64,000 nucleotides of DNA from Methanolobus chelungpuianus (GTDB taxonomy: Archaea > Halobacteriota > Methanosarcinia > Methanosarcinales > Methanosarcinaceae): positions 62,001 to 126,000 of the forward strand of contig NZ_JTEO01000006.1 in assembly GCF_024500045.1 (NCBI RefSeq), in the 5' to 3' direction. The notes beneath the pieces were generated by a model. It made no database searches, was not told the DNA's origin, and was given only the letters and a program-made list of their open reading frames with translations. Position numbers and translations under genes: made by a program. This document shows, piece after piece, positions 11,385 to 35,310 of the stretch (positions are counted from its first letter, which is position 1; the number at the start of each line of letters is the position of its first letter).

Positions 11385-12740
11385 ATGGCAGGTAAAAATG
11401 TAGCATCAGACCCTGTTTCCCTTATTCATCCCCGCTCACTGAAGAATCTTAGCTATCACCTGCAGTCCCTTGTCAGGGGCAGGCTGTGGCTGAAGATACT
11501 GATAGGGATGATGCTTGGCATTATCACCGGACTGGCACTTGGCCCATCTGCAGGGCTTGTGGATACGCAGCTTTCATACATTATTGGTGAATGGCTGGCA
11601 CTCCCCGGATACATTTTCCTTGCATTGCTGCAGATGATAGTCATCCCTCTGGTGTTCGCTTCTATTATCCGTGGAATAGCCGCAGGCGAGGATATGCAGC
11701 AGTTGAAGCAGGTGGGCCTGCGGACAGTTGCCTATTTCATCGCGACCACTGTGTTCGCCATACTGGTAGGGCTTGGCCTGGCACTGCTCATAAGCCCGGG
11801 CAGTTACATAAGCAGTGAGATGGTCCAGCAGACATTGGGCACAGGAGCCCCCGCAGCCGTGAACAGTACAGCGGGCGCACAAGGAAGTGCGCCGGCGGGC
11901 TTGGATGTCGCCAGCGTCCCGGCTATGATCACTACTATACTCCCTACAAATCCCCTGGGTGCGCTTGCCACGGGACAGATGCTGCAGGAGGTAAGCATGA
12001 CCATCGTGCGCTGGAGCATGCTTCTCGCGCCTCTTGCGGTGTTTGGCCTGATATGCAAGTTCACTATCAACCTTGGCATTGATGCCCTGCTGGGCATGCT
12101 GGTGTATGTAGGTACGGTGCTGCTGGGGCTTCTTGTACTTCTGGCAGCCTATATGCTGATAGTGTTTGCCGTTTCTGGAAAAGGCCCTCTCGGATTCATG
12201 AGTTCCATAAGGGATGTGCTGCTGCTTGCCTTCTCGACTTCCAGCTCTGCTGCAGTGATGCCTCTCTCCATCAAGACCGCCGAGGAAAAAGTGGGTGTGA
12301 GACCATCCATTTCCCAGTTCGTCATTCCCCTGGGCGCCACCATCAACATGAACGGCACGGCGCTGTACCAGAGCGTGGCAACGGTCTTCCTGGCCCAGGT
12401 CTTCGGGGTCGAGCTTGGCTTCTGGGCATTGGTGCTTCTTATGATAACCGTTGTAGGAGCGTCCATTGGTACTCCATCGACCCCCGGTGTGGGTATCGTC
12501 ATCCTTGCCATGATCCTTGGCAGCGTAGGCGTGCCAACAGCAGGGATAGCACTTATTATCGGAGTGGACAGGATACTGGATATGAGCCGTACCGCTGTTA
12601 ATGTCACAGGCGATATAGTCACATGTGTTGTCATGGACAAGTGGGTGGGCGGTAAAAAGTCAGCAAGGCAGGAGCTTGCCGAAGCGGAAAAGGACGAAAG
12701 GCAGAGGAGAGAGCTGGGTGAAGATGTGATAGTTAATTAA
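11385..12740 (+). CDS. Sodium/proton:dicarboxylate (glutamate/aspartate) symporter, DAACS family
   Basis: 451 residues, the usual length for GltP/DctA-type carriers. Eight helices and two re-entrant loops are predicted; the serine-rich HP1 loop is AFSTSSSAAVMPLSIK (about residue 283-298) and the NMNGTALYQ motif of helix 7 is present (GATINMNGTALYQSVATVF). HP2 has GTPSTPGVGIVILAMIL, and helix 8 holds DRILDMSRTAVNVTGD with the substrate-binding Asp and Asn. Probable uptake of acidic amino acids or C4-dicarboxylates. The N-terminal 30 residues are an extra hydrophilic extension. A TATA-like CCTTTAAAGATG precedes it. Confidence 0.93.
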   Translation: MAGKNVASDPVSLIHPRSLKNLSYHLQSLVRGRLWLKILIGMMLGIITGLALGPSAGLVDTQLSYIIGEWLALPGYIFLALLQMIVIPLVFASIIRGIAAGEDMQQLKQVGLRTVAYFIATTVFAILVGLGLALLISPGSYISSEMVQQTLGTGAPAAVNSTAGAQGSAPAGLDVASVPAMITTILPTNPLGALATGQMLQEVSMTIVRWSMLLAPLAVFGLICKFTINLGIDALLGMLVYVGTVLLGLLVLLAAYMLIVFAVSGKGPLGFMSSIRDVLLLAFSTSSSAAVMPLSIKTAEEKVGVRPSISQFVIPLGATINMNGTALYQSVATVFLAQVFGVELGFWALVLLMITVVGASIGTPSTPGVGIVILAMILGSVGVPTAGIALIIGVDRILDMSRTAVNVTGDIVTCVVMDKWVGGKKSARQELAEAEKDERQRRELGEDVIVN

Positions 12741-12775
12741 CAGGCCCCCATCAATTTCAACGCCTTGAAAATTAA

Positions 12776-12981
12776 GGCAGCCGTTTTTGATTAATTAACG
12801 GTTGTGTTAAGTAGGATGAAGATCTACTATTAATTACAGCTCCATTTCAAATGGGGCTGCCGGGACATAGGGTTCTGCCAGGAACTGAAAGGCAGGATCC
12901 TATCTCGTTAGTGAAAGGCAGGGTTGATCCGAAGATCAACAGAGGAAGCAGGCATTAGTTAAGTCTTCCACTGCCTTTCAC
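12776..12981 (+). ncRNA. Candidate structured RNA between symporter gene and hisG
   Basis: This gap folds strikingly well by eye. A 13-bp stem pairs 12867-12879 with 12891-12903 (ATAGGGTTCTGCC with GGCAGGATCCTAT, including two G-U pairs), 11-base loop. An 11-bp perfect stem pairs GTGAAAGGCAG (12911-12921) with CTGCCTTTCAC (12971-12981). Inside it sit a 7-bp hairpin GTTGATC/GATCAAC with a CGAA loop (12923-12940) and a 5-bp hairpin GGAAG/CTTCC (12944-12969), giving a three-way junction. Upstream, AGCTCCAT/ATGGGGCT forms an 8-bp hairpin (about 12838-12858), and GGCAGCC (12776-12782) could pair with GGCTGCC (12855-12861). Leader of hisG, symporter 3' element or independent RNA: not resolved. Strand is assumed from the flanking genes. 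Confidence 0.55.
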
Positions 12982-13140
12982 AAGTGCTTCCTGAATAATA
13001 GAGACAAGAATTGGATTTTTAAACGATTACACTTGACAGCATAAAATCTATTTGTTTTATCATAGTAAGAATGCCAGCGCTCTACAAGGTATGTCTCTGT
13101 AGAGAACTCTCGCAGCGGTTAGTGTTTAACACCCCTTAAA

Positions 13141-13162
13141 TACCATAATATCCCTTATGGTA
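13141..13162. promoter_or_regulatory. Inverted repeat upstream of hisG
   Basis: TACCATAA and TTATGGTA form a perfect 8-bp inverted repeat around TATCCC, 34 bases before the hisG ATG. Its place fits an operator near the promoter or a leader hairpin. A second imperfect element CTCTACA/TGTAGAG (13080-13104) lies 36 bases upstream. Confidence 0.4.
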
Positions 13163-13196: not shown

Positions 13197-14069
13197 ATGA
13201 TAAGCATAGCTCTTCCCAAAGGCAGTTTAGAGGAACAGACCTTCCTTTTGTTCAAGCAGGCGGACCTTGAGATAAAAAAGACTGACAGGGACTACAATCC
13301 AACCATCAGCGACCCGAGGATCGGCAAGATAAAGATCCTCCGGCCTCAGGAGATCCCCGGTTATGTATCTGAGGGTTACTTTGACCTGGGCATCTCAGGC
13401 CTGGACTGGGTCAGGGAGTCGAATGCCGATATCGTGGAAGTGGCGGACCTGCCCTACAGCAAGCAGGGAGCCGGTAATGTTAAGATCGTCATCGCCGTGC
13501 CTAAGGACAGCGACATCCAGAGCGCAAGGGACGTGAAGCCAGGCAGCAGGGTGGCTTCCGAATACCCGAACATGACAAAGAAGTTCTTCGAGGACCGCGG
13601 CGTCCCCGTGGATGTGCACTTCTCCTACGGAGCCACCGAGGCCAAGGTCCCTGACCTTATGGACGTCGTGGTGGACCTCACAGAGACCGGTTCCACGCTC
13701 AGGAAGAACGGCCTCAAGATCGTGGATATCATCATGGAGTCCTCCTCCAAGCTCATCGCCAACAGGAAGAGCTGGGAAGATCCGGTGAAAAGGAAGGAGA
13801 TAGAAGAGATCAGGACCCTGCTGCTCTCTGTGATAGAGGCAAGGGGTAAAGTGCTCCTGGACATGAACGTACCCGCAGATAAGCTGGATATTGTTATCGA
13901 GGCCCTGCCTTCCATGAAGCGCCCCACAGTGTCCCAGCTCTACAAGTCCGACTACTATGCCGTGGAGACCGTCGTCAACAAGAGCGAGGTCAACCTGCTC
14001 ATACCCAGACTCAAGGAGCTGGGAGCAGAGGACATCCTTGAGATGGATATCTCAAAGATCGTTTACTGA
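13197..14069 (+). CDS. hisG: ATP phosphoribosyltransferase, long form
   Basis: 290 residues. It catalyses the first step of histidine synthesis, joining ATP and PRPP. The catalytic domain runs from ALPKGSLEEQTFLLF at the start through GYFDLGISGLDWV (about 60-72) to the PRPP loop DVVVDLTETGSTLRKNGL (about 158-175). The C-terminal 75 residues form the ACT-like regulatory domain (LLDMNVPADKLDIVIEALPSMKRPTVSQLY), so this is the long, histidine-feedback-inhibited, hexameric form that needs no HisZ. It is not beside other his genes. The inverted repeat at 13141 and the RNA candidate at 12776 may regulate it. Confidence 0.97.
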   Translation: MISIALPKGSLEEQTFLLFKQADLEIKKTDRDYNPTISDPRIGKIKILRPQEIPGYVSEGYFDLGISGLDWVRESNADIVEVADLPYSKQGAGNVKIVIAVPKDSDIQSARDVKPGSRVASEYPNMTKKFFEDRGVPVDVHFSYGATEAKVPDLMDVVVDLTETGSTLRKNGLKIVDIIMESSSKLIANRKSWEDPVKRKEIEEIRTLLLSVIEARGKVLLDMNVPADKLDIVIEALPSMKRPTVSQLYKSDYYAVETVVNKSEVNLLIPRLKELGAEDILEMDISKIVY

Positions 14070-20607: not shown

Positions 20608-20805
20608 ATGGATACCCCCGATCCAATCTGATCTTGTATGGTAGTATACGATGACATATTTCATATCTTTTTCTTTTCAGGCCATCTGAAATTTTGACAG
20701 AGTTGTAAGAAAAGGTCCTGTTTAAAAATGACCTGCTGCACCATCTTCAATTGAGGAGGGAAATTAAGCAAGGTCCAGGTTATATAAAAAAAGCAACTAC
20801 CAGGT

Positions 20806-20945
20806 ATTGCGGGCTGTGGGGAAATGAACCGCAAATCGGGAGTGGAGTAGCAGAGAGATGTTGGGGAACATCCCGGATCCGTTAAGGAGAGAGGCGCCTT
20901 AAAGCATGGTGGTTTGTCCGCGCCTCATACTACCTTGAACTTTTA
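20806..20945 (+). ncRNA. Repeated structured RNA element, copy A
   Basis: TATA box GTTATATAA at 20779-20787 predicts a start near 20808, where the first hairpin begins (GCGG 20809-20812 / CCGC 20829-20832, loop with GTGGGGAAAT). P2 is GATGTT-GGGG-AACATC (20857-20872), partly clasped by CGGG/CCCG. P3 pairs GAGGCGC (20891-20897) with GCGCCTC (20920-20926) around TTAAAGCATGGTGGTTTG. A U-rich stretch (GTTGTTCTTTTCAT) follows. It lies 215 bases before the FilR1 gene at 21161. Copy A shares its upstream 60 bases with copy D. Confidence 0.75.
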
Positions 20946-21949: not shown

Positions 21950-22079
21950 CACGCAGGGTACTTTCTGAGATTAACGGGTTTGTTCGTAACACGACGATTG
22001 AAAATTCAATGACATTGAAATAGATGCTCAAGTAGATAATTAAGATGAGTTTAGGTTAAATAAAAAAAGTGCCTACTAC

Positions 22080-22215
22080 TGATTGCGGGTTAGGGAAATA
22101 ACTCGCGGGTTCGTTAAAAGACTCATCCGGGTATTGGGGAATCCTCGGATCTGCAAGGACGGAGGCACCTTAAAGCGTGGTGGTTTCCAGGTGCCTCACC
22201 TTTCCTTGGATAATA
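22080..22215 (+). ncRNA. Repeated structured RNA element, copy B (ahead of RuBisCO)
   Basis: TATA box TTAAATAA at 22056-22063. P1 is a perfect 8-bp stem GCGGGTTA/TAACTCGC (22085-22106, loop GGGAAA). P2 pairs CCGGGTATT (22127-22135) with AATCCTCGG (22140-22148), one mismatch, loop GGGG. P3 is GAGGCACC (22162-22169) with GGTGCCTC (22190-22197), 8 perfect pairs, around TTAAAGCGTGGTGGTTTCC. It differs most from the other copies, and its differences are paired on both sides of each stem. The RuBisCO ATG is about 70 bases downstream, so it may be a 5' leader or a separate RNA. Confidence 0.75.
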
Positions 22216-29810: not shown

Positions 29811-30027
29811 GTAAGGTGCTTCCTGTAGCGCAGCAATCTCCTTTAACCCCATAATAAGTATGTAAGTGGTAGTATTTATAAAAGCCCATTAATGTAAAGC
29901 AAGCACAGCTTTTATTTTAAGAACAGGGCTGAAATTGTAACGGCGCTGAAACTTCGCTTTCAGATTAAACATAACGCCGTTCGTAAGATTAAGAGGGATT
30001 TAGGTTAAATAAAAAACAACTACCAGG

Positions 30028-30165
30028 TATTGCGGGTCGTGGGGAAATAAACCGCAAATCGGGAGTGGAGTAGCAGAGAGATGCTGGGGAACATCCCGGA
30101 TTCGTCAGGAAGGAGGAGCCTTAAAGCGTGGTGGTTTCCGGGCGCCTCACCTTACCTTCAGATTT
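30028..30165 (+). ncRNA. Repeated structured RNA element, copy C
   Basis: TATA box TTAAATAA at 30005-30012. P1 GCGG/CCGC (30032-30055). P2 GATGCT-GGGG-AACATC (30080-30095), with one C-A mismatch. P3 GAGGAGCC (30113-30120) with GGCGCCTC (30141-30148), one mismatch, around TTAAAGCGTGGTGGTTTCC. U-rich tail ATTTTACTCTTTTCAT follows. Similarity with copy D continues past the tail to about 30215. The MarR-like gene starts 205 bases downstream with its own promoter, so this is probably a separate transcript. Confidence 0.75.
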
Positions 30166-34969: not shown

Positions 34970-35172
34970 GGGATTCAATCACATTATCTGAGCCGGATTC
35001 CCGCCGGGTGCGTCAGAGCTAGGTAAAATGATGGTAAATGCTCAACTCGCTGTTTGAAATTTCAATGCCGTTAAAAGAACATTTCTTTTGTGAAAATCGT
35101 TCATGGGATCATCTTCAATAGAGGAAGGAAATTAATCAAGGTTCAGGTTAAATAAAAAAAGCAACTATCAGG

Positions 35173-35310
35173 TATTGCGGGTCGTGGGGAAATGGACCGC
35201 AAATCGGGAGTGGAATGATAGAGATGTTGGGGAACATCTCGGATTCGTTAAGGAGAGAGGTGCCTTAAAGCGTGGTGGTTTCAGGGCGCCTCATCTTACC
35301 TTCAGATTTT
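35173..35310 (+). ncRNA. Repeated structured RNA element, copy D
   Basis: TATA box TTAAATAA at 35148-35155. P1 GCGG/CCGC (35177-35200) extended by a G-A mismatch and two further pairs. P2 GAGATGTT-GGGG-AACATCTC (35221-35240), 8 perfect pairs. P3 GAGGTGCC (35257-35264) with GGCGCCTC (35285-35292), 8 pairs with one G-U, around TTAAAGCGTGGTGGTTTC. U-rich tail follows (ATTTTACTCTTTTCAT). Lies between a FilR1 remnant and a full FilR1 gene. Confidence 0.75.

Follow-up and report, generated by a model that had tools for sequence, protein, structure and literature searches.

A probable small RNA gene between a symporter gene and hisG in Methanolobus, with a promoter type common to a repeat family

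The window, i.e., the whole stretch of 64,000 nucleotides of Methanolobus chelungpuianus DNA analysed here (contig NZ_JTEO01000006.1, positions 62,001 to 126,000), carries on its plus strand a gene of a sodium:dicarboxylate symporter (11385–12740; Pfam PF00375, 2.6e-96), followed on the same strand by hisG (13197–14069; Pfam PF01634 and PF08029). The latter is preceded by a TATA-like box of its own, CTTAAATA (13135–13142, plus strand), located about 54–61 nt before the hisG start codon. Between the two genes a multi-stem RNA had been predicted at 12776–12981, and it is this element that is considered below. The symporter is found in 24 of the 27 Methanolobus genomes, mostly apart from hisG. 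In the source genome it misses about 36 residues around position 195 when compared with intact relatives, which may reflect either a deletion that keeps the frame or a fault of the assembly, and the gene may thus be inactivated. A CRISPR repeat (Rfam CRISPR-DR7) occupies positions 144–180, at the left edge of the window.

The 206 nt of the predicted interval (12776–12981) fold with a minimum free energy of −83.5 kcal/mol, as compared with −52.9 ± 4.6 kcal/mol for dinucleotide shuffles (z = −6.7), and none of the 200 shuffles reached the energy of the native sequence; the pairing is indeed far above chance, as the original prediction had stated. Folding is strong on the minus strand too (z −5.9, −68.5 kcal/mol), which inverted repeats lead one to expect, and the direction of the element is taken as plus on account of the promoter evidence and the lower plus-strand energy. 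All the stems named beforehand were recovered, including the perfect 11-bp stem, the CGAA-capped 7-bp hairpin and the three-way junction. Hairpin H1 (12837–12859, plus strand) comprises 10 bp and is paired in 96.8% of its cells over the seven copies, and hairpin H2 (12861–12907, plus strand) consists of 5 + 12 bp (17 pairs with a 2-nt bulge) closed by an 11-nt loop. Domain H3 (12911–12981, plus strand), which like H2 rests on the fold and on the alignment of the copies, is the three-way junction, in which the outer stem of 11 perfect base pairs (12911–12921 with 12971–12981) encloses the CGAA-capped hairpin (12923–12940) and a second hairpin (12944–12948/12965–12969). Beyond H3 a T-run at 13016–13020 (plus strand) is a candidate terminator that would give a transcript of about 185 nt; T-runs are present beyond H3 also in the copies of genomes G005, G018 and G011. 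In Rfam release 15 nothing above the gathering threshold was found for the element (chance matches only, at E ≤ 10), and no Rfam guide RNA family, either C/D or H/ACA, matched it.

A covariance model of the element, R1, detected seven copies only in 112 genomes of the family and no relative in the remaining 13 sampled genera of the family, while two weak R1 matches elsewhere proved to be members of the repeat family described below. Syntenic copies lie in the symporter-hisG gap of G018, G017, G011, G008 and G005 (C1:332,315–332,551, minus strand), the last of which we take to be probably M. psychrophilus R15, and show 78–80% identity in BLAST. Most of the 27 Methanolobus genomes are without the RNA, and it is absent from hisG upstream regions in other species and genera; in G013 and G026 the symporter adjoins hisG across a gap of 130–136 nt with no RNA in it. 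The source genome (G000) contains a second copy at C6:199887–200067 on the minus strand (74% identity, BLAST), placed between two unrelated genes named from their sequences, one sfsA-like and one PhnB-like, and following a repeat-family RNA of the same strand at a distance of about 230 nt. No match of the element was found in phage and plasmid collections.

The body stems are kept in these homologous copies, with 93.5% of their cells paired across the seven known copies, vs 35–45% when the partners are slid. In each of the seven copies the body folds more strongly (z −1.8 to −4.4) than the promoter part does (−0.6 to −2.2). Changes on both sides of a stem affect only 4 pairs of the element body, not above shuffles, and therefore covariation by itself is weak here. 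The upper part of H2 is deleted in the G017 copy, and the diverged copy retains the outer 8 bp of the H3 stem. A small-peptide reading of the element was rejected, as no reading frame is conserved among the copies.

The repeat family is represented in the window by plus-strand small RNAs at 20760–20940 (177.5 bits; promoter layout common with the element), 22036–22211, 29985–30162 and 35128–35306 (196.3 bits), all matched by R2, a model built only from the repeat family, which had been noted at 20.8–35.3 kb. The window copies sit among genes of FilR1-like winged-helix regulators (Pfam PF08350). With R2, nine Methanolobus genomes have 9–29 matches each, and 13 of the 27 genomes of the genus have one or more; no other genus of the family is matched, and the repeat family is absent from Rfam. 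Its covariation is strong (two-sided changes at 9 pairs, vs 0 of 500 shuffles). G005 carries the element together with about 20 repeat-family matches; two loci of this genome (L211 and L201; C1:2815–2957 and 600888–601043) match R2 weakly, have another start, AAAAAATAGAGACAATCGGGATGGTT, and are perhaps another related RNA type.

The consensus structure of R2 begins at TATTGCGGG, and the part upstream of it is unpaired and AT-rich, as for promoter DNA. Only R2 positions 1–47 and a short tail align to the element (24 bits), the body being skipped. Since this match is confined to the promoter part, which is unpaired in the R2 consensus, the segment 12753–12832 is most likely promoter DNA of the element, and the RNA would start near 12835. 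The interval proposed originally thus holds real stems, yet promoter DNA most likely makes up its first portion, from 12776 to about 12832, and the whole feature starts at 12753. The 5′ hairpins were rejected as RNA structure: their fold differs among the copies, and the same region is an unstructured promoter in the repeat family.

The candidate promoter opens with an upstream box, AATTTCAACGCCTTGAAAATT (12753–12773, plus strand), that resembles a regulator site and has the repeat-family counterpart AATTTCAATGCCGTTAAAA. It was recognised by a pattern match with 2 mismatches, by its distance to the TATA and by a weight matrix, yielding AATTTCAATGCCATTAAAA, for which 33 promoters of the repeat family in G000 and G005 served as the training set; with this matrix, derived from repeat-family promoters only, the element box scores 14.7 bits (p ~3e-4 vs Markov-1 shuffles). 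In the relatives from G008, G005, G018 and G017 the box scores 14.0 to 17.1 bits, whereas that of the second copy reaches no more than 4.4 bits (p = 0.07). An AATTAA element, GGTTGTG and the TATA-like box GTTAAGTA follow at 12787–12813 (plus strand; TATA 12806–12813) in the R2 alignment; the TATA-like box is weak, and the same box occurs in three repeat-family copies of the source genome. The predicted transcription start region, 12833–12836 (plus strand), with the initiator CTACTATTAATTACAG vs CTACTANNTATTGCGGG in the repeat family, was placed from the promoter alignment and from the TATA-TSS distance of 19–22 nt reported for M. psychrophilus (PMC5378194).

The most surprising part of this common promoter is its 18-nt ladder. 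In nearly all training promoters the box starts at −53, −71, −89, −107 or −125 (±1) relative to the TATA, and of 27 further promoters that could be scored (G002, G018, G026 and G008), 26 keep the ladder, with p ~1e-19, a value which overstates independence because some of the check loci are orthologues of training loci; it is also kept in the more distant G002 and G026. In the window the ladder is seen before the repeat-family RNAs that begin at 20760, 22036, 29985 and 35128. The element stands at −53, on the same rung as the repeat-family RNA at 22036–22211, and the distance is −53 or −54 in all six element copies checked. The longer ladder classes gain 18-nt steps, some with A-rich sites, e.g., ACAAAAGATAGTA. 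A genome-wide scan of G000 with the box pattern (up to 2 mismatches) returned ten sites, all before small RNA genes (nine of the repeat family and the element). Additional box matches, five of them in G005 and three in G026, were set aside, having no TATA-like box on the ladder and lying in several cases inside apparent coding sequence, and 31 matches of the 18-mer in viral contigs were judged to be chance, since the 18-mer is degenerate.

The repeat family is therefore both like and unlike the element. Common to them are the upstream box, the AATTAA element, the TATA-like box, the initiator and the 18-nt register, as well as the succession of three hairpin domains downstream of the start and a similar size. 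Repeat-family bodies, in contrast, carry a GCGTGGTGG loop, a TTGGGGAA hairpin and a AAGCGTGGTGG loop hairpin, none of which is found in the element body, and the latter shows no clear homology to the former; hence the common promoter need not imply a common function. The earlier view that the element is unlike the repeats at 20.8–35.3 kb holds for the RNA body, which R2 skips, and fails for the promoter, which both have in common as judged by the 24-bit match, the box and the rung.

How should an RNA-like element be explained that lies between two genes of the same orientation? It had been suggested that it could belong to the 5′ end of the hisG mRNA as a cis-regulatory leader sensing histidine, PRPP or a nucleotide, and in 6 of 6 genomes with a syntenic copy it does precede hisG in the same orientation, which would agree with that. 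However, the TATA-like box of hisG lies downstream of the element, and this promoter block is kept in every copy and also in the RNA-less gaps of G013 and G026; given this separate promoter and the second copy, which stands without hisG, the element is independent of hisG and should not be regarded as its leader. Moreover, the gap after the RNA is poorly conserved and varies in length, reaching about 800 nt in G008, the RNA is missing from most Methanolobus genomes and before most hisG genes, and no Rfam riboswitch matched it, all of which leaves the leader very improbable. The suggestion of a free RNA fared better, as the element has its own promoter-like block, a conserved structured body and a second copy between unrelated genes.

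The upstream gene offers another explanation, in which the hairpins belong to the 3′ untranslated region of the symporter mRNA, as a stability element or as a small RNA processed from the 3′ end, with no independent gene. The conserved block begins 12 nt past the symporter stop codon and in the syntenic copies is always downstream of the symporter, and the element might be co-transcribed from that gene; but the promoter match would then be fortuitous, no symporter adjoins the second copy and the symporters of other species lack the element, so this origin appears unlikely. A small mobile or repetitive (MITE-like) DNA element, the hairpins of which would be relics of transposition devoid of RNA function, would account for two copies at different places in the source genome and for the G013 and G026 gaps without it. 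Against it speak the single syntenic place in six species, the seven copies only in 112 genomes, the conservation of promoter-like block and hairpins despite about 20% divergence, and the edges of the element, at which no terminal inverted repeats are evident; we consider such a relic hardly credible.

The element is probably a real small RNA gene, which to our knowledge has not been described, and we are fairly confident that it represents an independent non-coding RNA gene of Methanolobus with a promoter common to the repeat family. It is best read as a free small RNA of 150–190 nt: the promoter at 12753–12832 would drive an RNA with its 5′ end near 12835 and its 3′ end either at 12981 or at the T-run (13020), and this RNA would form three hairpin domains. 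Since the promoter type is common to both, one regulator probably controls the element and the repeat family (about 20 copies per genome) and would switch their RNAs together, possibly in the cold. A DNA-binding regulator would contact the box, a site in 18-bp register from the TATA box, and perhaps also A-rich sites of lower affinity that recur at 18-bp intervals as far as the promoter. The element RNA itself may act in trans on other RNAs or on a protein; its predicted pairing with the hisG start, the symporter start or a repeat-family RNA (z −0.1, −2.1 and −1.2) was not convincingly above 25 shuffles. A wider model is slightly favoured, in which about 20 genes per genome form a small RNA regulon, the activator site is accepted only at 53 + 18n nt from the TATA, the regulator spreads in 18-bp steps and two unrelated bodies have been recruited to one promoter type.

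Some known archaeal small RNAs bear comparison with the element. Methanosarcina mazei sRNA162 (PMC3510493) and sRNA154 are likewise structured intergenic RNAs of the Methanosarcinaceae with their own promoters, a likeness by description in which the promoter of the element is a predicted one; the trans-acting small RNAs of Methanosarcina mazei differ in that the element is without relatives in those 13 further genera that were sampled. Within the same genus are the small RNAs of M. psychrophilus R15, for which the published study reports 195 small RNAs, nine of them highly conserved, cold-induced (induction at 8 °C) and preceded by a "cold box" (PMC5378194). They too are several conserved small RNAs with a common motif upstream of their promoters, and the element and the repeat family are possibly these very "cold box" RNAs (PMC5378194). 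In a form suited to comparison with the published cold box, the motif found here reads AATTTCAAYGCCRTTAAAA.

Archaeal small RNAs are poorly understood, and neither the element RNA nor the repeat family is contained in Rfam. A multi-gene small RNA regulon with quantised promoter spacing would be an unusual mode of transcription control in archaea, here in a genus that is in culture and has sequenced genomes, and, if this regulon is the "cold box" regulon, it would link these RNAs to the cold adaptation of methanogens.
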